Virus record (IMG/VR): IMGVR_UViG_3300028666_000043
Span: 1-51,077 of that record
Direction: 5' to 3' (one strand)
Length of the DNA: 51,077 nucleotides
DNA from: a virus
Part shown: positions 82 to 44,790 of the stretch, one piece after another
Position numbering within the stretch: position 1 is the first letter of the stretch
How the letters are laid out: every line of letters begins with the position of its first letter
The notes under the pieces: model-generated
The model's database searches: none
What the model saw: the letters and a program-made list of their open reading frames with translations, nothing else
Told to the model about the DNA's origin: nothing
Position numbers and translations under genes: made by a program

Positions 82-126
82 AATCTACCATTAATTTGGT
101 AGATTCAGATATTTATCATATCTTTG
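82..126 (+). promoter_or_regulatory. Hairpin-promoter module driving the tRNA genes
   Basis: A 9-bp inverted repeat (82-90 with 97-105, 6-nt loop) contains the -33 box TTTG (95-98). The -7 box TAtcTTTG lies at 119-126 after a 20-nt spacer. This is the Bacteroidota primary-sigma pattern. The hairpin could end upstream transcription while its loop and 3' arm supply the next promoter. The start of transcription falls just before the sequence CAGTTCATTGA (129-139), which recurs at 454-464 after the next promoter. Confidence 0.8.
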
Positions 127-142
127 TGCAGTTCATTGAAAT

Positions 143-226
143 GCTTGGATGGTGGAATTGGTAGACACAAGGGACTTAAAATCCCTCGGCTCAACAGCTA
201 TGAGGGTTCGACTCCCTTTCCGAGTA
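143..226 (+). tRNA. tRNA-Leu (anticodon TAA)
   Basis: A complete class II cloverleaf is visible: acceptor 143-149 with 219-225, anticodon stem AGGGA/TCCCT around loop CTTAAAA (anticodon TAA), a long variable arm as expected for leucine, and a T arm with loop TTCGACT. The discriminator is A226. CCA is not encoded, since CTA follows. TTA is a frequent codon in this AT-rich genome, so the tRNA probably supports phage translation. Confidence 0.95.
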
Positions 227-229
227 CTA

Positions 230-303
230 GGGCTTGTAGCTCAATTGGTTAGAGCATCTGACTCATAATCAGAGGGTTTGGGGTTCAAGTCCCCACGAGC
301 CCA
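230..303 (+). tRNA. tRNA with CAT anticodon (Met or lysidine-type Ile)
   Basis: A class I cloverleaf: acceptor GGGCTTG (230-236) pairs with CGAGCCC (296-302), anticodon stem TCTGA/TCAGA holds loop CTCATAA, and the T loop is TTCAAGT. The discriminator is A303 and CCA is not encoded. A CAT anticodon can be elongator methionine or ATA-reading isoleucine after lysidine modification. I cannot separate these by eye. It lies 3 nt after tRNA-Leu and is presumably co-transcribed. Confidence 0.92.
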
Positions 304-312
304 CAACAATAT

Positions 313-404
313 AAGGTAAGTCGATAGTGGTACAAATGGCAGATCGGCACTGTCCGTAACAGGGTTCCCACGATGGAACTCGTGCCTGTTATGTAGACTA
401 CCTT
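313..404 (+). ncRNA. Compact structured RNA, class unknown
   Basis: The segment folds by eye into a closed, tRNA-sized structure. An outer stem pairs 313-318 with 399-404 and 320-322 with 396-398. A short arm closes at 323-325/343-345. A three-way junction without unpaired bases then follows: GGCAC/GTGCC (346-350/382-386), a small hairpin 351-361, and a 7-bp hairpin GGGTTCC/GGAACTC (362-368/375-381). The outer stem runs into T5 (403-407). It is not a tRNA because no anticodon arm with U33 can be drawn. It is in the tRNA transcript. Confidence 0.5.
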
Positions 405-418
405 TTTAGGAAATTAAA

Positions 419-450
419 TTTGGTAGATTCATTTATTTTTTCTACCTTTG
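419..450 (+). promoter_or_regulatory. Primary-type promoter of the large structured RNA
   Basis: TTTG at 419-422 and TAccTTTG at 443-450 are separated by 20 nt. The expected start lies near 455, in CAGTTCATTGA (454-464), the same initial sequence that follows the tRNA promoter at 129-139. Confidence 0.8.
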
Positions 451-547
451 TTTCAGTTCATTGATAAAGATATTCTGGTTCTGGTTCCCTCACAAGGGAC
501 GTAAGCTGGTGAGCAGTCGGGCTCATTGGTCCAACATGGCAGCGATG

Positions 548-616
548 CTTGTAGTAGTTTAATCAAAACACGGTGCCCAAAAGCACTGGTTGGAGGTCTC
601 GAATCCTCTCTACATA
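548..616 (+). other. tRNA-like domain inside the large RNA
   Basis: A degenerate cloverleaf: TGTAG (550-554) pairs with CTACA (610-614), followed by a GTTT/AAAC arm, an anticodon-like arm with GTGC/GCAC around CCAAAA, and a T-like arm whose loop TCTCGAAT has 8 nt. It lacks U33 and the D-loop GG, so it cannot act as an ordinary decoding tRNA. It may be a relic or a structural mimic within the larger RNA. Confidence 0.4.
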
Positions 617-860
617 ATACAAAGCTATGGAATCAGATAAGGTGCCACTGGTTAAACATACAATTTGAGCGTTGTATGGAGCGACTGGTCCTCCGTGAGC
701 GAGGGCCTTAGCGACCAGTGGAGCTCACACCTCTTGGACCAAAAGAAGGCCAAGCCAGGTAAGGCCAGAGCACTGGACCAAATAAAAGAACAAGGCCAGC
801 TTAAGCTGGATTAAAGATATGTTGCATGGCTGCAATAGGAGCTGGTAACTCCAAAGCGTT

Positions 861-894
861 GGACCCCTCGAAAGAGGTGGTCCTTTTGCTTTTT
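861..894 (+). terminator. GAAA-capped hairpin with T tract
   Basis: GGACC (861-865) and CCTC (866-869) pair with GAGG (74-77 of the 800s) and GGTCC (879-883) around a GAAA tetraloop, with one bulged T. TTTTGCTTTTT follows. It reads as an intrinsic terminator, although it could also be an internal helix of the RNA. Confidence 0.65.
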
Positions 895-912
895 ATACTG
901 GTCCTGTACACA

Positions 913-944
913 TTTGACATTTGTAAATATTATTCGTATATTTA
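913..944 (+). promoter_or_regulatory. Promoter of the HNH gene
   Basis: TTTG at 913-916 and TAtaTTTa at 937-944, spacer 20 nt. The last base of the -7 box deviates from consensus. The start codon follows 10 nt later. Confidence 0.55.
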
Positions 945-954
945 CAAATGAGTT

Positions 955-1449
955 ATGATAAAACGACAAAAATATCTTGAGGCTAATAAAGTAAGAATTG
1001 CTAAACAGAAAAGGGATTATTATGATACTAATAAAACTGATATGTTATCTAACCAAAGAGAATGGCGTGAAAATAATAAAGAAAAACAAACTCAATTCAG
1101 ACGAGATAAATTGAAGAACAATAATCTACATAAGATAAAATGTAGTATTAGAACATTGATAGGAAATTCATTTAGATACAAACGTATAAGAAAATCTTCA
1201 AACACTGAGTTAATTTTAGGTTGTTCATTTCCTCAGCTTAAACATCATATCGAATCTCAATTTGAGCCTTGGATGAATTGGAACAATAAAGGTTTATATA
1301 ATGGTGAATTTAATTATGGATGGGATATAGATCATATTATTCCATTATCAACTGCAACAACCGAAGCTGAATTAATTCAACTTAATCATTATAGCAATCT
1401 TAGACCACTTTGTAGTTATACCAATAGAGTTATTAAACGTAACGTATAG
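955..1449 (+). CDS. HNH homing endonuclease
   Basis: A 164-residue free-standing HNH nuclease that probably cuts DNA at its own insertion site. The first 60 residues are a lysine- and glutamine-rich helical DNA-binding segment. The catalytic core is visible as WDIDHIIPLS (123-132) followed by NHYSNLRPL (144-152), the H-N part of the beta-beta-alpha-metal fold. The zinc-binding cysteines of some HNH families are absent. It has its own promoter and sits between 9-bp direct repeats within a hairpin of the RNA locus, as homing genes often do. Product class is confident, target site is inferred. Confidence 0.88.
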   Translation: MIKRQKYLEANKVRIAKQKRDYYDTNKTDMLSNQREWRENNKEKQTQFRRDKLKNNNLHKIKCSIRTLIGNSFRYKRIRKSSNTELILGCSFPQLKHHIESQFEPWMNWNNKGLYNGEFNYGWDIDHIIPLSTATTEAELIQLNHYSNLRPLCSYTNRVIKRNV

Positions 1450-1518
1450 ACACATTTGTGTACATAGGTGGACCGAAGACTCATCTAAACAAAGATAATG
1501 CAACCAAGAGCCCCTAAA

Positions 1519-1553
1519 TAAGAAAGGCAACCCTTTCGGATCGCCTTTTCTTA
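1519..1553 (+). terminator. Terminator-like hairpin
   Basis: TAAGAAAGGC (1519-1528) pairs with GCCTTTTCTTA (1543-1553) with one bulge. An alternative AAAGG/CCTTT pairing exists inside. It could end either the HNH transcript or the ancestral uninterrupted RNA. Confidence 0.55.
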
Positions 1554-1589
1554 TACTCTAAGGTTTATAGCTGTACCTTCAACTTGCCG

Positions 1590-1646
1590 TTGCGAGAGAT
1601 GGAATCGAACCACCGACATTGCGCTCTACCACTGAGCTATCTCGCA
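1590..1646 (-). tRNA. tRNA-like element lacking the anticodon arm (degenerate tRNA)
   Basis: On the minus strand a perfect 7-bp acceptor stem TGCGAGA/TCTCGCA, a D arm GCTC-AGTGGTA-GAGC and a T arm GGTGG-TTCGATT-CCATC are intact, with A as discriminator. Only 8 nt (GCAATGTC) separate the D and T arms where about 23 are expected, so the anticodon loop and one side of its stem are missing. It begins 7 nt after the stop of the cysteine-rich gene at 1654, in the same direction, so it may form the 3' end of that mRNA. It could be a decayed tRNA or a kept mimic. Confidence 0.65.
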
Positions 1647-1653
1647 GTATAAT

Positions 1654-1872
1654 TTAACTACACTCACACGTACCATAATCACAGCAACAAGTACTTGACC
1701 ATACTTGACAACAACTACACCAACTCATATATCCATCACACATACTACACTTAGAGTCTCCATGTCCATATCGGTAATACTTATCCTTACGTTTAGCTTT
1801 ACGATTCTCCTTGCGTAGATAAGTACGCTTGAGTCGTTCAGCAATATAAGCAGAGTCTTTCGATTTTGACAT
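1654..1872 (-). CDS. Cysteine-rich small protein
   Basis: Seventy-two residues. The first half is strongly basic (KRTYLRKENRKAKRKDKYY). The last 32 residues contain ten cysteines, including CSMC, CSCC and CCC clusters, which suggests a compact metal-binding domain, most likely zinc, perhaps acting on nucleic acid. I do not recognise a family. Its promoter -7 box ends only 4 nt before the ATG, so the mRNA is probably leaderless. A tRNA-like element follows the stop codon at once. Confidence 0.8.
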   Translation of the reverse strand: MSKSKDSAYIAERLKRTYLRKENRKAKRKDKYYRYGHGDSKCSMCDGYMSWCSCCQVWSSTCCCDYGTCECS

Positions 1873-1876
1873 TTGA

Positions 1877-1908
1877 CAAAGATAGTAATTAATTTCTAAT
1901 AAAACAAA
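1877..1908 (-). promoter_or_regulatory. Promoter of the cysteine-rich gene
   Basis: On the minus strand TTTG (1908-1905) and TATCTTTG (1884-1877) with a 20-nt spacer. Only 4 nt separate the box from the ATG at 1872. Confidence 0.8.
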
Positions 1909-1920
1909 TTTGAAGTAAGG

Positions 1921-2166
1921 CTATTTAAGCCCTACCATTTTTTTCAATTCAGCTTTTATTTCACGAGCTTTATCACCTTTCCAAGTGGTTGCGTTTGACA
2001 AAAAGTACAACACAACACTTTTTGCCGTATCTTGGTAATACATATCCTCGATTGAGTTGAGGGTTTCCATTGCTTCCAAATAAGGCTTAGCCCCAAAGTA
2101 AAGCTTAACCCAATCCTTGCGGATTTCCTGAGCAATTTCAGATAAAGGACGATTTGTGTTTGTCAT
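1921..2166 (-). CDS. Conserved small phage protein, NRPLSEIA type
   Basis: Eighty-one residues, mostly helical. The opening RPLSEIAQEIRKDW, the central PYLEAMETL and the ending KAREIKAELKKM match a small protein I recall from many unrelated phages and actinobacteria, always of unknown function. It is transcribed leftward from its own promoter at 2193-2224, and a 49-nt gap separates it from the downstream cysteine-rich gene, which has a separate promoter. Family memory is moderately confident, function is unknown. Confidence 0.85.
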   Translation of the reverse strand: MTNTNRPLSEIAQEIRKDWVKLYFGAKPYLEAMETLNSIEDMYYQDTAKSVVLYFLSNATTWKGDKAREIKAELKKMVGLK

Positions 2167-2192
2167 AGATAAGTTGTTTTAATTGGTTGGTG

Positions 2193-2224
2193 CAAATATA
2201 GATTATCTTTACCAATCTACCAAA
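2193..2224 (-). promoter_or_regulatory. Promoter of gene 1921-2166
   Basis: Minus-strand TTTG (2224-2221) and TATATTTG (2200-2193), 20-nt spacer. Confidence 0.8.
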
Positions 2225-2254
2225 TTTATTTTTATTAATTATTTTACTGGATTA

Positions 2255-2285
2255 TTTGCAGAATCAAAATATTTGTTTATCTTTG
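2255..2285 (+). promoter_or_regulatory. Promoter of gene 2308
   Basis: TTTG at 2255-2258 and TAtcTTTG at 2278-2285, spacer 19 nt. It is divergent from the promoter at 2193-2224, so 2.2 kb is a two-way start region. Confidence 0.8.
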
Positions 2286-2307
2286 CCTCAACCAAATAAA
2301 CAAAGCC

Positions 2308-2475
2308 ATGAACTACTACGAAAATCAATTAAGCAACGTTAATACAAAAAGTGAATTTGCCCCTAAGATTAAAGTTAATAGTGGTGAAGGTAATGGTGAA
2401 ACCAAATGGATGGATGTTAATAAAGAAAGTGCTGAGGCTTTGGTAAAATGGCTTACTGCAAATTTTATCAAATAA
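2308..2475 (+). CDS. Small hypothetical protein (55 aa)
   Basis: A short frame starting 22 nt after a strong promoter box and ending with TAA. The product is hydrophilic, with a predicted helix SAEALVKWLTANF at the C terminus. No family recognised. The stop lies inside the loop of a 7-bp hairpin (2456-2462/2477-2483) that also holds the next gene's TTTG box, so gene end and next promoter are physically merged. Gene reality is supported by this regular promoter-gene-hairpin spacing. Confidence 0.6.
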   Translation: MNYYENQLSNVNTKSEFAPKIKVNSGEGNGETKWMDVNKESAEALVKWLTANFIK

Positions 2476-2507
2476 ATTTGCAGAATCAAAATAAAATACT
2501 ATCTTTG
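2456..2507 (+). promoter_or_regulatory. Hairpin-promoter module before gene 2535
   Basis: CTGCAAA (2456-2462) pairs with TTTGCAG (2477-2483). The 3' arm contains the -33 TTTG (2477-2480). TAtcTTTG is at 2500-2507 after 19 nt. Confidence 0.65.
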
Positions 2508-2534
2508 TCCCATACCAATTAATACTACTCAGTC

Positions 2535-2642
2535 ATGGAAAAACTTGAATTTATTATCGGATTTGAATTTGGAATGCCAATCGTACATACCATTTGGATA
2601 CCCAAACGACAAAAGAAAACTTATCAAAAATCTTCCAATTAA
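2535..2642 (+). CDS. Tiny hypothetical protein (35 aa)
   Basis: A 35-residue frame: a hydrophobic N-terminal half (IIGFEFGMPIVHTIWI) and a basic tail (KRQKKTYQK). This could be a short membrane-associated peptide. It has its own promoter, and its TAA is located within the hairpin 2632-2650 that carries the next promoter. No family recognised. Confidence 0.5.
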   Translation: MEKLEFIIGFEFGMPIVHTIWIPKRQKKTYQKSSN

Positions 2643-2674
2643 TTTGGAAGTTTCAAAATTAAGTACTACATTTG
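2632..2674 (+). promoter_or_regulatory. Hairpin-promoter module before gene 2696
   Basis: CTTCCAA (2632-2638) pairs with TTGGAAG (2644-2650), 5-nt loop. TTTG (2643-2646) overlaps the 3' arm, and TAcaTTTG is at 2667-2674 after 20 nt. Confidence 0.7.
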
Positions 2675-2695
2675 CTTCACATTAATAACACAGCC

Positions 2696-2764
2696 ATGAC
2701 AAGCCAAACACCTGATAAAAGTGGAGCAATTGCTCCAGTACGTGAAGTTAAACCACAACACTAA
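2696..2764 (+). CDS. Possible micro-ORF (22 aa)
   Basis: Twenty-two hydrophilic codons (MTSQTPDKSGAIAPVREVKP and two more) after a promoter, with the same spacing as neighbouring genes. Too short to judge coding by composition. The transcript continues about 100 nt without another frame, so it may equally be the leader of a small RNA. Confidence 0.35.
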   Translation: MTSQTPDKSGAIAPVREVKPQH

Positions 2765-2865
2765 AACCTAAAAGGTATGCCGAATAAAGGTCCCCCTAGT
2801 ATATAGCGAAGGCTTAACTACTATAAAATAATTAAAGATAACTTAGACTGAATAAAAACAAAAAT

Positions 2866-2910
2866 AACCCATCATTAATTTGGTGGGTTGTTTTATTTTA
2901 CTTATCTTTG
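2866..2910 (+). promoter_or_regulatory. Terminator hairpin overlapping a promoter
   Basis: AACCCATC (2866-2873) pairs with GGTGGGTT (2882-2889), followed by GTTTTATTTT, which is a plausible intrinsic terminator. TTTG (2879-2882) straddles the loop and 3' arm, and TAtcTTTG is at 2903-2910 after 20 nt. Confidence 0.75.
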
Positions 2911-2914
2911 CCTT

Positions 2915-2992
2915 GTTGATTGAGAGATCAACGGGACGACTAGAGTCGGAAGGTATACTCCACGCTACACATATCTCAAAAATACTTGAAGA
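2915..2992 (+). ncRNA. Short promoter-driven RNA without ORF
   Basis: The promoter at 2879-2910 starts a transcript that has no usable start codon before the next promoter (2997). The segment forms GTTGAT/ATCAAC (2915-2920/2927-2932), CGAC/GTCG (2937-2940/2945-2948) and a GGA/TCC stem around GTATAC. It is a candidate small RNA or a long leader for the gene at 3054. Confidence 0.4.
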
Positions 2993-2996
2993 TAAA

Positions 2997-3028
2997 TTTG
3001 GTGGATTCAAATATTATATCTATATTTG
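2997..3028 (+). promoter_or_regulatory. Promoter of gene 3054
   Basis: TTTG at 2997-3000 and TAtaTTTG at 3021-3028, spacer 20 nt. Confidence 0.8.
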
Positions 3029-3053
3029 TCTCACCAATCTAAACCACATAGCC

Positions 3054-3353
3054 ATGCACATTACAATCAATACTCCAAACCAAATTTTTAAAACCATTGG
3101 TCACACTGAAAAGTTTGAGCCAGTCCTTTATTTTAAAATTGGACAACGTAAACAAGCGATTAAAGACCTCACAGACTACTTTAATGAGTTTGATAAGGTA
3201 CTAGCTACTGGTATCCAATTTACCGAAAATGACTGGGAAAAATATGCTACTCAATTTGAAGAGAAAGCTAAGGTTAAAGCACTTGAAACGATTGAGCGTG
3301 TTGTAGAATTTAACAATAAATTTTTTACTTTTTTACCTGTTATTAAAAAATAA
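3054..3353 (+). CDS. Hypothetical protein (99 aa)
   Basis: The frame is open from 2880, but I choose ATG 3054 because it follows the promoter box by 25 nt, as in neighbouring genes. The upstream codons would lie in promoter and RNA sequence. The product has a strand-rich first third (MHITINTPNQIF) and a helical second half rich in Lys and Glu. No family recognised. Confidence 0.75.
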   Translation: MHITINTPNQIFKTIGHTEKFEPVLYFKIGQRKQAIKDLTDYFNEFDKVLATGIQFTENDWEKYATQFEEKAKVKALETIERVVEFNNKFFTFLPVIKK

Positions 3354-3458
3354 TACTTATATTTGTCTCATGGATAATACACTGATAATATCACAGCACA
3401 AGTAAGAGAGAACTATGGAACTCCTGAAAAACCACACTGGAAAAATAAGGGTGGACAA

Positions 3459-3674
3459 GTGTTTAGTCTCAATGTAGATAGCGATGCTTTTATGTACGTT
3501 GAAAAAGAGTGTATTGAAGCGATTAAAACCCTATTGGCGAAACGCTCCAATGCTATGTGTATTTATGAATACGTTGACCATGAATTGATTTTTACGGGTA
3601 TTGAAACCCTTAACGATAAAGACTTTGCTGAGGAACTGCAAAAGAATTGTGAAAAGAACTATAAACCAACATAG
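3459..3674 (+). CDS. Hypothetical protein, start unresolved
   Basis: The frame is open from 3378 and reads sensibly upstream of the GTG at 3459 (VRENYGTPEKPHWKNKGGQ), so the GTG is probably not the true start. No ATG, GTG or TTG exists between the in-frame stop at 3375 and 3459. A -7 box (3358-3365) is followed 4 nt later by an ATG (3370) in another frame, which would need a -1 shift. The product has an alternating helix-strand region and no recognised family. A small deletion, an unusual start or an assembly error are all possible. Confidence 0.6.
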   Translation: MFSLNVDSDAFMYVEKECIEAIKTLLAKRSNAMCIYEYVDHELIFTGIETLNDKDFAEELQKNCEKNYKPT

Positions 3675-3712
3675 ACACGAACTAGGACACTATGTCTATG
3701 TTAATGTCCTAG
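3671..3712 (+). other. Candidate H-type pseudoknot over a stop codon
   Basis: Two interleaved stems: ATAGACA (3671-3677) with TGTCTAT (3693-3699), and CTAGGACA (3682-3689) with TGTCCTAG (3705-3712). Connecting loops are 4, 3 and 5 nt, which is sterically reasonable. The TAG stop of the preceding gene (3672-3674) lies in the first stem. No T run follows, so it is not a simple intrinsic terminator. Confidence 0.5.
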
Positions 3713-3722
3713 TAAAATATAA

Positions 3723-3805
3723 GGTAGATCGGAGTATACTTCCCGACCCAAGTCGTAACGTCATCCATTGACAAGACAAATGTAGGTAAAAGATTTCAAT
3801 CTACC
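3723..3805 (+). ncRNA. Possible second small structured RNA
   Basis: GGTAGAT (3723-3729) pairs with ATCTACC (3799-3805), enclosing short hairpins such as CGG/CCG around AGTATACTTC and GTC/GAC. No reading frame is present in the 210-nt gap between genes. It has no promoter of its own and would be the tail of the upstream transcript. The support is weak. Confidence 0.3.
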
Positions 3806-3828
3806 AAATAAAAATAACACAAAATAAA

Positions 3829-3859
3829 TTTGGTAATTAGAATTATTTGTTTATCTTTG
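3829..3859 (+). promoter_or_regulatory. Promoter of gene 3886
   Basis: TTTG at 3829-3832 and TAtcTTTG at 3852-3859, spacer 19 nt. Confidence 0.8.
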
Positions 3860-3885
3860 CCTTAACCAATTAAAACATATCTACC

Positions 3886-4173
3886 ATGACACCATTTGAA
3901 CAAGCACAAGAAGACGTTAAAAATAAAAAACTTACTACTCCAAGTGTAACAGTAGGCGCAAAGCCAATTGATTATTTTGGTTATCAACTGGCTACCCACA
4001 AATTTAACCTTAGTCTTATGGCAAAAGGAATGAAATTTAGAGGTATCAAGTTTAGCGATATTAAACACTATTACGGTCTCAAAGGTCGCTCTGCTAAAGA
4101 CTGCCTAGAGCAATACGAAAAAATCATGGCAGACTACAAAGAAAAGTTTGAGAAAGCTAAAACAGAAGAATAA
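3886..4173 (+). CDS. Hypothetical protein (95 aa)
   Basis: A 95-residue soluble protein with its own promoter and a hairpin-promoter module directly after its stop. The middle contains FNLSLMAKGMKFRGIKFSDI and GLKGRSAKDC. The last 30 residues form a charged helix (EQYEKIMADYKEKFEKAKTEE region). Basic overall. No family recognised. Size and context resemble early host-takeover genes of large phages. Confidence 0.8.
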   Translation: MTPFEQAQEDVKNKKLTTPSVTVGAKPIDYFGYQLATHKFNLSLMAKGMKFRGIKFSDIKHYYGLKGRSAKDCLEQYEKIMADYKEKFEKAKTEE

Positions 4174-4180
4174 AAATAAT

Positions 4181-4222
4181 CCTCCATTTATTTGGAGGTT
4201 TCATTTATTTGATTTATCTTTG
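4181..4222 (+). promoter_or_regulatory. Hairpin-promoter module before gene 4256
   Basis: CCTCCA (4181-4186) pairs with TGGAGG (4193-4198). TTTG (4191-4194) overlaps the 3' arm. TAtcTTTG is at 4215-4222 after 20 nt. The hairpin starts 7 nt after the preceding stop codon. Confidence 0.8.
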
Positions 4223-4255
4223 CCCTATCAATTAACAACCTAAAAATACCAAGCC

Positions 4256-4426
4256 ATGTCACGTAGCAAAAATACCATGAAAATTACCAAAGAGCAAGTT
4301 TATACCTTTGAAAGGGCTGCTCGTAGAAATGCTGATATTGAAATGGGAACTCCTCATTTTAAACACAAGGCACACAAAACCGCTAAAGACTATAACCGTC
4401 AAAAGTATAAAAAATTTGAAGACTAA
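4256..4426 (+). CDS. Small basic protein (56 aa)
   Basis: Fifty-six residues, strongly basic (MSRSKNTMKITKEQVYTFE start, HKAHKTAKDYNRQKYKKFED end), which suggests nucleic-acid or acidic-partner binding. It has its own promoter 33 nt upstream and is followed 4 nt after the stop by a 7-bp hairpin module. No family recognised. Confidence 0.72.
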   Translation: MSRSKNTMKITKEQVYTFERAARRNADIEMGTPHFKHKAHKTAKDYNRQKYKKFED

Positions 4427-4430
4427 AATA

Positions 4431-4473
4431 TGTGCAATTAAATTTGCACATTCAAATTATTTGTCTATCTTTG
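4431..4473 (+). promoter_or_regulatory. Hairpin-promoter module before gene 4500
   Basis: TGTGCAA (4431-4437) pairs with TTGCACA (4444-4450). TTTG (4443-4446) sits at the loop edge. TAtcTTTG is at 4466-4473 after 19 nt. Confidence 0.8.
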
Positions 4474-4499
4474 CATCAACCAATTAACACATACCTCTT

Positions 4500-5045
4500 A
4501 TGAAATTTGTAACCGAAAAAGAATTAGCACAAATACTATTTGAAACCAAAATAATCAAAGGTATGCCACTCTTTGCAAGTGTACTCCAATACACAAGCGC
4601 AAAGTTGGTGCAAAAAAGCCGTACCAATAAGGAAATCAAAAATCCTTATCCTAAAGCAATGAAGGTATCTAAAGTATCTATCCTTTTGAATAGCAACTAC
4701 GAAGTTGCCGTAACCAATCAATTGGTACGTGAAGGGAAAGATGTTGCTGAATATCAAAAGGGCGAAAATACCATGCCCCTTATCTTTAGCGAGAATAACC
4801 AATTTATTGGTATCTTTAAAGGTGAATTTGTCCTCCAATATCGCCCAAACGATAACGTTAAACCACGTACCAAATATGTGGATAACGGTAAGATTATCGA
4901 CAAAGCGAAAATCGAAGAATTTTTACCAAAGGTAAGCGAAGCAGAAAATCAAGGCACTGACCGTGAAATCCTTTGGCGCAAATTGTACCTTAAAAACGTA
5001 CTTAAGTTGACACTGAACGGAGAAACATACAAGGTTATCCGTTAA
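4500..5045 (+). CDS. Hypothetical protein (181 aa)
   Basis: The largest product of the early cassette. It begins with a helix (KFVTEKELAQILFETKI), has a mixed centre with NPYPKAMKVSKVSILLNSNYE and strand-rich segments, then a charged linker and the C-terminal LYLKNVLKLTLNGETYKVIR. I do not recognise a family or catalytic motif. It has its own promoter and a 9-bp hairpin-promoter module right after the stop. Confidence 0.85.
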   Translation: MKFVTEKELAQILFETKIIKGMPLFASVLQYTSAKLVQKSRTNKEIKNPYPKAMKVSKVSILLNSNYEVAVTNQLVREGKDVAEYQKGENTMPLIFSENNQFIGIFKGEFVLQYRPNDNVKPRTKYVDNGKIIDKAKIEEFLPKVSEAENQGTDREILWRKLYLKNVLKLTLNGETYKVIR

Positions 5046-5050
5046 TAAAT

Positions 5051-5095
5051 AAACCTCCATTTATTTGGAGGTTTCAATTCTTTTATATATCTTTG
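5051..5095 (+). promoter_or_regulatory. Hairpin-promoter module before gene 5100
   Basis: AAACCTCCA (5051-5059) pairs with TGGAGGTTT (5066-5074), 6-nt loop TTTATT. TTTG (5064-5067) overlaps loop and arm. TAtcTTTG is at 5088-5095 after 20 nt. Only 4 nt remain before the ATG at 5100. Confidence 0.85.
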
Positions 5096-5099
5096 AGCC

Positions 5100-5405
5100 A
5101 TGAAAACAGCTATAACAAATTGGACCGAATTTGAACGTGACGATCTTAATATGATCCCTACGATGGTAGCGAATGGTTTTACCCCCGAATTTAATTATAG
5201 TGATAAAAATACTGGACGAACAACGCCACAAAACCCACCACTTGATGCGGTAAAATTTGTTAAAGGAAATTTATACGTTTGGAAGTGTTATAAAAATACT
5301 GGTGGGTTTTGGCAAACGGCTGAATTGATTGACGGGCAATACTCAAATCATAAACCTGTTGATAACTTGAATGATCTTTTTAACATAAAAGATTTGGTAG
5401 TCTAA
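5100..5405 (+). CDS. Hypothetical protein (101 aa), leaderless
   Basis: A 101-residue soluble protein rich in aromatic residues and Asn (NWTEFERDDLNMIP, LYVWKCYKNTGGFW). The promoter box ends 4 nt before the ATG, so the mRNA should start at or near the start codon. The promoter of the next gene lies inside the last codons (TTTG at 5393-5396). No family recognised. Confidence 0.78.
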   Translation: MKTAITNWTEFERDDLNMIPTMVANGFTPEFNYSDKNTGRTTPQNPPLDAVKFVKGNLYVWKCYKNTGGFWQTAELIDGQYSNHKPVDNLNDLFNIKDLVV

Positions 5406-5428: not shown

Positions 5429-5773
5429 GTGAAAGATAAACGGATCAGTACAACTACTACCATTGACGAAATTAAACAGAACCCAAAAAACGTTATCAAA
5501 TTATATCGTAGCAAATTAGGTAAAAGGTTTACCATTGAAATCGAAACCAAAAATCCTATTGCATTTACCAGTCTAATATACACAAAAGAAATTGATCGGG
5601 ATGCGGATTATTTGACACTGGACACAGAGGTATTTGAATTGCTGGACTTTAACCCCTATACCACCCCTCCCCATGTACCCCTCCCCCCGTTACCCCCCTT
5701 ATATACCCCCCCGTCTACCCCCTCCAATAGGGCCTATGATGATGTTCGCAAAATTTTTTTGGGAATTTTTTGA
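5429..5773 (+). CDS. Hypothetical protein with proline-rich low-complexity tail
   Basis: A 114-residue frame starting at GTG directly after its promoter box. An out-of-frame ATG at 5427 is closed at once by TGA. Residues 1-75 look like a normal small domain (KNVIKLYRSKLGKRFTIEIE). Residues 76-102 are Pro-rich because the DNA is a C-run tract, and the last residues come from an A/T-tract repeat. The original gene may have ended near 5650, with the tail gained by the arrival of these tracts. Confidence 0.6.
   Translation: MKDKRISTTTTIDEIKQNPKNVIKLYRSKLGKRFTIEIETKNPIAFTSLIYTKEIDRDADYLTLDTEVFELLDFNPYTTPPHVPLPPLPPLYTPPSTPSNRAYDDVRKIFLGIF
5653..5725 (+). repeat. C-run tract (G-quadruplex potential on minus strand)
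   Basis: Eight runs of four to seven C residues (5653, 5664, 5669, 5678, 5683, 5693, 5706 and 5718) lie within 70 nt, in a genome that is otherwise very AT-rich. The minus strand therefore has enough G runs for several quadruplexes. It is located within the 3' part of CDS 5429-5773, next to the A/T repeats. Confidence 0.85.
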
Positions 5774-5881
5774 CCTTTATTAAGGCCCTACCCCTTTTCA
5801 GAAAAAATTTTTCCCAGAATTTTTGGCTTAAAATATAAGAGACCTCTATTTTCAAAAAATTTTTCTGGGAAATTTTCGACC
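5749..5881 (+). repeat. Three A/T-tract repeats around a GGGAA core
   Basis: Copies at 5749-5775 and 5853-5881 are direct, and 5801-5826 is inverted. Each has the form A-tract, T-tract, (CT)GGGAA, T-tract, GACC or its variant. The unit spacing and phased A tracts imply bent DNA. The stretch 5774-5887 holds no gene. It could be a replication origin, a packaging-related site or a mobile miniature repeat. Only the repeat itself is seen directly. Confidence 0.75.
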
Positions 5882-10620: not shown

Positions 10621-10630
10621 TATAAATATT
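10621..10630 (-). promoter_or_regulatory. ATATTTAT motif, proposed late promoter
   Basis: Minus-strand AATATTTATA ends 15-16 nt before the ATG at 10605. It overlaps the TTTG box of the divergent plus-strand promoter (10629-10660). Confidence 0.5.
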
Positions 10631-10660
10631 TGGAAAATCGGAATAAGTTTATTACCTTTG
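10629..10660 (+). promoter_or_regulatory. Promoter of lipoprotein gene 10681
   Basis: TTTG at 10629-10632 and TAccTTTG at 10653-10660, spacer 20 nt. Confidence 0.8.
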
Positions 10661-10680: not shown

Positions 10681-10974
10681 ATGAAAAAGGTATTAATGAT
10701 TTTTATGTTAGCACTAGGTGCAATTATCTGTCAATCATGTAATGATGAGACTTATGAACAAAGAGCAGCTCGACTTAAAGAACAAGGTAACCTTTTACCT
10801 GAATCAACTTTTGAATACTCACCTTTAAATACTTATAAGGTAATTAAAATTGGTAATTGTGAGTATATTGCAGGGTGGGGTGGTCAAGGTAATGGTGGAC
10901 CTTATTTAACACATAAGGGAGACTGTAGTAATCCGATACACAAGTTCATGAATTCTGATTCACTTAAAAAGTAA
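10681..10974 (+). CDS. Lipoprotein (97 aa)
   Basis: MKKVLMIFMLALGAIICQSC is a lipoprotein signal peptide with Cys20 as the lipidated residue, followed by an acidic NDET as seen in exported lipoproteins of Bacteroidota. The mature part includes IKIGNCEYIAGWGGQGNGG and THKGDCSNPIHK, a pattern I have seen in hypothetical proteins of other phages infecting this phylum. Own promoter, and followed by genes 10979 and 11384 in the same direction. Possibly a superinfection-exclusion or envelope factor, by inference only. Confidence 0.85.
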   Translation: MKKVLMIFMLALGAIICQSCNDETYEQRAARLKEQGNLLPESTFEYSPLNTYKVIKIGNCEYIAGWGGQGNGGPYLTHKGDCSNPIHKFMNSDSLKK

Positions 10975-13674: not shown

Positions 13675-14118
13675 ATGAAAATCAAAATAACAGAAGGTCA
13701 AGCTAATCGTCTTAAACTCATAAATGAGGATGTAAGTATTATCGCAAAATTTGAAGAGTTTTGCAATGCTAAGGTTAAAGAATTGAATGCTCTATATGTT
13801 AACATTGGAATGATTTCTATTATTGAAATTATCAACAATGAAATTAGTCTTGCTAAGATAAGCAATCGTTTAGATGCGATTGATTCTGCTTTGATGGATG
13901 GTGATAGAAAAGCTTATTCTGTCATTAATGATGCTAATGAAGGCGAAAATTTAGATATAAGAATAGATAATGCACATGATCTGGTATCTCAAAAATTAAG
14001 GCCCTTACAAATGATTGTATTGGACCTAGAGAAGCTTCAAGCATTATCTACTGAACATGGTTTAAATAAGTCATTTGATGACGTAAAACCGATAGATGTT
14101 ACACCTACAGAAAGTTAA
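13675..14118 (+). CDS. Hypothetical protein with ITE-type N terminus (147 aa)
   Basis: ATG 13675 is preferred over the upstream in-frame codons because the ATATTTAT motif lies at 13657-13664. The start MKIKITEGQANRLKLINED matches the beginning of gene 16173 (LIITEKQLHRLK), a recurrent opening in large-phage proteins. The remainder is helical (two long helices around residues 20-110). Function unknown. A virion or internal-head role is possible if ITE is a protease site. Confidence 0.75.
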   Translation: MKIKITEGQANRLKLINEDVSIIAKFEEFCNAKVKELNALYVNIGMISIIEIINNEISLAKISNRLDAIDSALMDGDRKAYSVINDANEGENLDIRIDNAHDLVSQKLRPLQMIVLDLEKLQALSTEHGLNKSFDDVKPIDVTPTES

Positions 14119-14157
14119 CCAAAGATTTGGTTATTAATATTTTTATTTGTACCTTTG
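14117..14157 (+). promoter_or_regulatory. Hairpin-promoter module before lipoprotein gene 14176
   Basis: AACCAA (14117-14122, overlapping the previous stop) pairs with TTGGTT (14127-14132). TTTG (14126-14129) is in the 3' arm. TAccTTTG is at 14150-14157 after 20 nt. It shows the same design as the modules of the first 5 kb. Confidence 0.7.
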
Positions 14158-44440: not shown

Positions 44441-44743
44441 TTACTTTTGTTTTGGCATTCGTTCATGACATGTATGTCTATCGCCACAATTACTACAAAC
44501 ACAATCATTTAAATCTTTATAGTTTTCTGGATGATCTGTATCTAGAATAAAACCAGCTAATGTACTTGTATGACCTTCAGAACCACATTTAGGACATAAC
44601 GCATGATTATCACGATATTCTTTTCTTAACTGTTTAGCTTTAATATCGTGTTCTAAAAAGATAGCATCACATTCTAGACATACCTTATCTGTATATCTTT
44701 CACTGAATTCATCAGCATCTTTTTTGCATATATAACATTCCAT
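44441..44743 (-). CDS. Zinc-ribbon protein (100 aa)
   Basis: ATG 44743 is chosen since its promoter box (44748-44755) covers the longer frame. Four Cys pairs: CYIC, CLEC, CPKC and CSNC with a nearby His-rich end (RHTCHERM). Together they would form two zinc ribbons, suggesting nucleic-acid or protein binding. The mRNA is leaderless (4 nt). First of a three-gene leftward group. Confidence 0.82.
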   Translation of the reverse strand: MECYICKKDADEFSERYTDKVCLECDAIFLEHDIKAKQLRKEYRDNHALCPKCGSEGHTSTLAGFILDTDHPENYKDLNDCVCSNCGDRHTCHERMPKQK

Positions 44744-44747
44744 TATG

Positions 44748-44790
44748 CAAATATACATAAAAAAACCCATGGTATCAAGTACCATAGGTT
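44748..44790 (-). promoter_or_regulatory. Terminator-promoter module between 44815 and 44743 genes
   Basis: On the minus strand, AACC-mismatch-TATGGT-type arms (44764-44774 with 44780-44790) form a hairpin followed by a T run (44763-44758): a terminator for gene 44815-45699. TTG (44778-44776) is in the loop, and TATATTTG (44755-44748) follows after 20 nt. The same design as in the first 5 kb recurs here. Confidence 0.75.

Follow-up and report, generated by a model that had tools for sequence, protein, structure and literature searches.

Hairpins at the -33 box of host-type promoters as probable terminators of the preceding genes in a phage with T4-like genes and in related viral contigs

The analyzed DNA (the window) is a viral record of 51,077 bases in which T4-like terminase, portal and capsid genes are present. 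The nearest isolates are distant, e.g. Flavobacterium phage immuto with 41% capsid and 28% terminase identity to the window phage. The promoters of the window carry TTTG at -33 and TAnnTTTG at -7 with 19-20 nt between the two boxes and match the consensus of the primary sigma factor of Bacteroidota, sigma-ABfr (PMC7366714). The -33 TTTG element was not revealed by RNA-seq in Flavobacterium (PMC7366714). This promoter consensus points to a host among the Bacteroidota and is the sole basis of the assignment. A tRNA-Leu/tRNA-Met pair is located downstream of the first promoter described below. Another tRNA was found with Rfam at 1590-1646 on the minus strand and missed by ARAGORN, and a tRNA-Val at 10873-10966 on the plus strand was called by ARAGORN alone. 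The region 955-1449 near the tRNAs gave a weak HNH endonuclease match under the Pfam cut-off and is likely a homing-type gene. Two promoter-led stretches (460-960 and 2910-3000) contain many short repeats (CTGGTCC, GGCC) without clear ORFs and are possibly non-coding RNAs; no Rfam family was found for either. At 5680-5880, inverted repeats resembling AAAATTTTTTTGGGAATTTTTT recur after a C-rich run.

Nine hairpins had been proposed in the initial annotation to carry the -33 box of the next gene, and all nine were found, each overlapping the TTTG or TTG of a TTTG-N19/20-TAnnTTTG promoter (Table 1). TAnnTTTG follows 19-20 nt past TTTG in eight of these modules and past TTG in the module on the minus strand. 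Stems measure 6-14 bp and loops 4-6 nt, with the exception of the 14-nt loop at 2456-2507. Eight modules form more stable folds than shuffles of matched composition (p<=0.003), while the result for 14117-14157 was marginal (p about 0.09). Folding of eleven other window promoters of the same form was no better than that of their shuffles (p 0.11-1.0). An intrinsic terminator is expected to have a T-rich tail, which is good in five of the nine modules (2866, 4181, 5051, 14117 and minus 44790) and weak or absent in four (82, 2456, 2632 and 4431). The small genes adjoining the modules yielded no confident Pfam family. At 5088-5105, an ATG (5100) lies only 4 nt past the -7 box of module 7, and the mRNA of gene 5100-5405 may thus be leaderless. 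The listed start of ORF 44441-44785 on the minus strand falls within the hairpin of module 9, whose promoter would place the start later, near 44742.

Table 1. Hairpin-promoter modules and promoters without a hairpin in the window.
Feature	Position	Strand	Stem	-33 box	-7 box	Remarks
Module 1	82..126	+	82-90/97-105 (9 bp), loop TTAATT	TTTG 95-98	TATCTTTG 119-126	drives tRNA-Leu/tRNA-Met pair; weak T-tract; R1 match 79-128
Module 2	2456..2507	+	2456-2462/2477-2483 (7 bp), 14-nt loop	2477-2480	2500-2507	no T-tract; overlaps 3' end of ORF 2308-2475
Module 3	2632..2674	+	2632-2638/2644-2650 (7 bp)	2643-2646	TACATTTG 2667-2674	weak T-tract
Module 4	2861..2910	+	2861-2874/2881-2894 (14 bp, two G-U included)	2879-2882	2903-2910	T-rich spacer; strongest of the window, -18.2 kcal/mol; R1 match
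Module 5	4181..4222	+	4181-4186/4193-4198 (6 bp)	4191-4194	4215-4222	T-rich spacer; 17 nt from stop of ORF 3886-4173 to -33; R1 match
Module 6	4430..4473	+	4430-4437/4444-4451 (8 bp)	4443-4446	4466-4473	weak T-tract
Module 7	5051..5095	+	5051-5059/5066-5074 (9 bp)	5064-5067	5088-5095	T-rich spacer; flanked by ORFs 4500-5045 and 5100-5405; R1 match
Module 8	14116..14157	+	14116-14122/14127-14133 (7 bp)	14126-14129	TACCTTTG 14150-14157	T-rich spacer; p about 0.09; R1 match
Module 9	44748..44790	-	44790-44780/44774-44764 (11 bp)	TTG within loop	TATATTTG 44755-44748	tail GGGTTTTTTTATG; classic terminator
Divergent promoter without hairpin	2193..2224	-		2224-2221	2200-2193	faces promoter at 2255
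Divergent promoter without hairpin	2255..2285	+		2255-2258	2278-2285	
Divergent promoter without hairpin	10629..10660	+				upstream of ORF 10681-10974

Related viral contigs were gathered by promoter patterns that left the 5' arm unspecified. Among 628 promoters, 80 strong stems (>=9) over the -33 box were detected, compared with 7.7 in a half-swap control in which the 5' halves were exchanged between promoters; these counts are subject to enrichment by loop-containing patterns, to the non-independence of related phages and to mechanical ORF calling. The start of the 3' arm of strong stems, analyzed in 738 promoters, has its maximum between 0 and +6 of TTTG and drops on either side, with about 400 counts across offsets 0-8 and 1-41 per 3-nt bin elsewhere. 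Across the phages, hairpins with a T-tract (90 versus 5.2 expected) and U-poor hairpins (23 versus 8.2 expected) both exceeded expectation. The -33 and -7 boxes were nearly absent at wrong spacing: viral scans with the pattern CATTTATTTGGT-N17/18-TATnTTTG returned 57 stretches with the correct spacing and 6 with a spacing two bases shorter, which served as the negative control.

The stem sequences differ between modules, as had been noted initially, and they covary across related phages; even within one genome, the copies have different stems in which complementarity is kept. In an alignment of 31 modules (A1), 90.9% of stem positions were paired versus 73.5% after shuffling and at most 53% with the arms slid, and changes on both sides were present in 9 of 12 stem pairs. 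As the modules of A1 were picked for having hairpins, an unbiased scan of the whole viral collection with CATTTATTTGGT-N17/18-TATnTTTG, which fixes the stem at the closing CA/TG only, is the fairer test. Of its 48 sites, 27 paired at 7 or more of the 8 further register positions versus 7.0 by swapping, and the swap control never exceeded 13 in 200 trials. G-U pairs form in the sense RNA, whereas DNA and the antisense RNA have mismatches there. Stem scoring assigned equal cost to G-U and A-C mismatches, and real stems contained 123 G-U and 7 A-C, whereas the ratio in chance (control) stems was 348:152. The excess of G-U and near absence of A-C indicate selection on the sense RNA, i.e. the RNA of the upstream gene, and not on promoter DNA or a DNA palindrome.

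The recurrence of the loops ATTTATTTGG and ATTAATTTGG, pointed out in the initial annotation, was verified, but they do not constitute a separate signal. Promoters without a hairpin share the same (A/T)AATTTGG core, and the recurrent loop is thus the -33 box itself; a distinct conserved loop signal was accordingly rejected. Most promoters sharing the core lack a hairpin, as a hairpin score of at least 14 was reached in only 12 of 135. On one related contig (L006), the ortholog of the gene end preceding module 7 has a stand-alone terminator with the loop TTAA, which is not a -33 sequence. The ATTTATTTGG loop is thus a part of the promoter. Promoter variants with TTAG in place of TTTG at -33 were observed on the same contig (L006:980-1030, 3100-3130 and 8616).

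A second geometry was identified at a relative of window gene 3886-4173, where a different hairpin, AGATTTGGAnnnnnGAAAnnnnnTCCTTATCTTTG, follows the stop by an equal interval. In this arrangement (type B, as opposed to type A, the hairpin over the -33 box), an 8-bp stem starting from the G of TTTG and closed by a GAAA tetraloop fills the spacer between -33 and -7, and the candidate U-tract is the -7 box TTATCTTTG. The outer A-rich flank is also able to pair with the -7 box. A viral scan with both arms unspecified retrieved 69 distinct type B sites (examples are L121, L032, L006:4095 and 6727, and L285), 60 of which were fully paired versus 9.5 by swapping. Pairing amounted to 98.3% versus 72.7% after shuffling, with 10 G-U and zero A-C, and 65 of the 69 sites lie at most 60 nt from a co-directional stop. 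Representative hairpins of types A and B have energies of -9.7 to -16.9 kcal/mol. Type A was present at 79 loci, type B at 55 and both at 24, although some of these loci are parts of a single contig that overlap. Type A in one phage corresponds to type B in another at orthologous gene ends, with the -33 box 17 nt past the stop in both. No clear type B site was found in the window; an antisense promoter at 3784-3808 on the minus strand has a degenerate, type B-like GAAA hairpin in its spacer.

The gene context of the modules follows transcription direction. In module-rich phages, hairpins were fused to 49 of 188 co-directional promoters and to 1 of 23 divergent promoters (p=0.012), and any terminator, fused or separate, was detected at 82 and 3 of these promoters, respectively (p=0.003). 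The separate terminators account for 33 co-directional and 2 divergent cases. The -33 box is mostly positioned 15-42 nt past the stop of the upstream co-directional gene, and the longest T-run in the spacer is 5.6 with a hairpin versus 3.0 in hairpin-less promoters. The suggestion that each tiny gene is insulated in this way was overstated, as 106 of the 188 co-directional promoters had no detectable terminator and 33 had a separate one.

Judged from sequence comparison, a module very probably superimposes two elements, the intrinsic terminator that ends the upstream transcript and the host-type promoter of the following gene. The compact terminator-promoter fusion envisaged in the initial annotation is thereby supported by overlap, register, covariation, strand asymmetry and gene context; the proposed dependence of initiation on hairpin structure was not borne out. 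According to the favored model, the transcript of the upstream gene would fold into the hairpin as the polymerase reaches the U-tract. The 3' arm would start in the -33 box, with the rest of the arm and the U-tract taking up the spacer, so that polymerase would be released at the -7 box of the next gene or immediately ahead of it; transcription of that gene would then be initiated from the same bases. Transcripts are predicted to end at the modules, and the gain would be compactness and insulation. The -33 core (A/T)TTTGG would provide one arm for free, and a complementary 5' arm (CCA or TCA...) together with a T-rich spacer would be all that is still required. For this reason, the arrangement can evolve again and again where co-directional genes adjoin in small-gene arrays.

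Recognition of extruded DNA or a cruciform by the polymerase, or by a factor of the phage, to start transcription would likewise explain why hairpin and -33 box keep a constant register. A variable stem with a constant loop recalls the promoters of the N4 virion RNA polymerase, which have a hairpin at the promoter with a variable stem. However, most promoters with the same core lack a hairpin, as do divergent ones, the -7 element is of the normal host type, and a DNA hairpin would not discriminate between G-U and A-C mismatches. The RNA-level selection indicated by the G-U bias and the hairpin-less promoters led to the rejection of a cruciform or N4-like promoter, and dependence of initiation on the hairpin is considered extremely unlikely; the promoter's own transcript would begin downstream of the hairpin and would not contain it. 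It is similarly very unlikely that the inverted repeats are operators for a dimeric repressor or activator. Their position across -33 would suit a repressor, and near-identical U-poor dyads occur at two promoters of contig L039, but the G-U bias and the preference for co-directional junctions just past stops argue against this function. A common operator was rejected, as stems differ among copies in one genome yet stay complementary.

The hairpins could alternatively stabilize mRNA 3' ends against exonucleases or mark a cleavage site, with read-through continuing. This would be compatible with RNA-level selection and would account for the U-poor hairpins at 82, 2456, 2632 and 4431, but the strong T-tract directly past the arm in most modules across phages renders it an unlikely general explanation. 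Plain intrinsic termination does not account for the U-poor hairpins (four of nine in the window, and 23 versus 8.2 expected across phages), and these hairpins, present in excess over expectation, may be weak terminators or mRNA-end stabilizers. Some weak stems are expected by chance, since AT-rich TTTGG promoters readily form short stems (7.7 of 628 in the half-swap control). The ten-fold excess, the register peak and the covariation leave a negligible probability for composition as the cause, which was refuted by the controls.

A covariance model of the modules (R1) matched 17 sites in a 233-kb relative and 14 and 11 sites in two others. Applied to 296 Bacteroidota genomes with 20 candidates scored per genome, R1 had 7 hits on a single phage-like contig plus two weak hits. 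The motif occurred once on a genome contig, namely on a contig of 27 kb that belongs to a metagenome bin, carries all 7 R1 matches of this bin and looks like a phage. R1 had no match in Flavobacterium phage immuto, crAss001, phi14:2, Rhodothermus RM378 and LR756508. Host chromosomes provided just 7 strict promoters in 700 kb, so this comparison is of little use. Within the sensitivity used, type A looks phage-borne and limited to some lineages.

Terminators and sigma-ABfr promoters are already known; for their systematic overprinting in phages in two geometries, a limited search of open-access literature gave no precedent. The modules share with intrinsic terminators a short stable RNA hairpin past the stop with covarying stems, A-rich sequence before it and, in type B, a GAAA tetraloop; T-rich sequence after the stem is shared by most modules across phages and by five of nine in the window. 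Unlike in these terminators, the 3' half also serves as the spacer between the -33 and -7 boxes of the following promoter. Both boxes and the 19-20 nt spacing are those of sigma-ABfr promoters, whereas in the modules the -33 box sits in a terminator arm and its core is extended to (A/T)AATTTGG. In contrast to N4 hairpin promoters, the module hairpin is optional, being found in a minority of same-core promoters, acts as sense RNA and is placed on a normal host promoter. The window phage has small-gene arrays and T4-like terminase, portal and capsid genes in common with T4 and its early gene arrays; no comparable overlap of a -35 box and a hairpin was found in 50 kb of T4 (2 of 208 loose promoter-like sites).

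The arrangement would represent a natural, repeatedly evolved bifunctional element of about 45 bp with two geometries, in which the end of one gene is combined with the start of another. The modules are ready-made short parts for Bacteroidota genetics, improve operon and promoter prediction in uncultured phages and support the -33 TTTG element by independent evidence at the sequence level. They are also an ideal substrate for testing polymerase recycling after termination. With E. coli RNA polymerase in vitro, 37-55% of terminated polymerase re-initiated downstream (PMC6978380, PMC6978322); a terminator is near a downstream promoter in both systems, as separate units in E. coli and with shared bases in the modules. 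By analogy, the overlap might couple termination to re-initiation, as the polymerase that releases the upstream RNA at the U-tract would already be on the next promoter and would re-initiate after a slide of less than 40 bp, although this is rather doubtful. If true, a row of modules would relay polymerases along the gene array with little return to solution, which would favor phage genes when polymerase is scarce.
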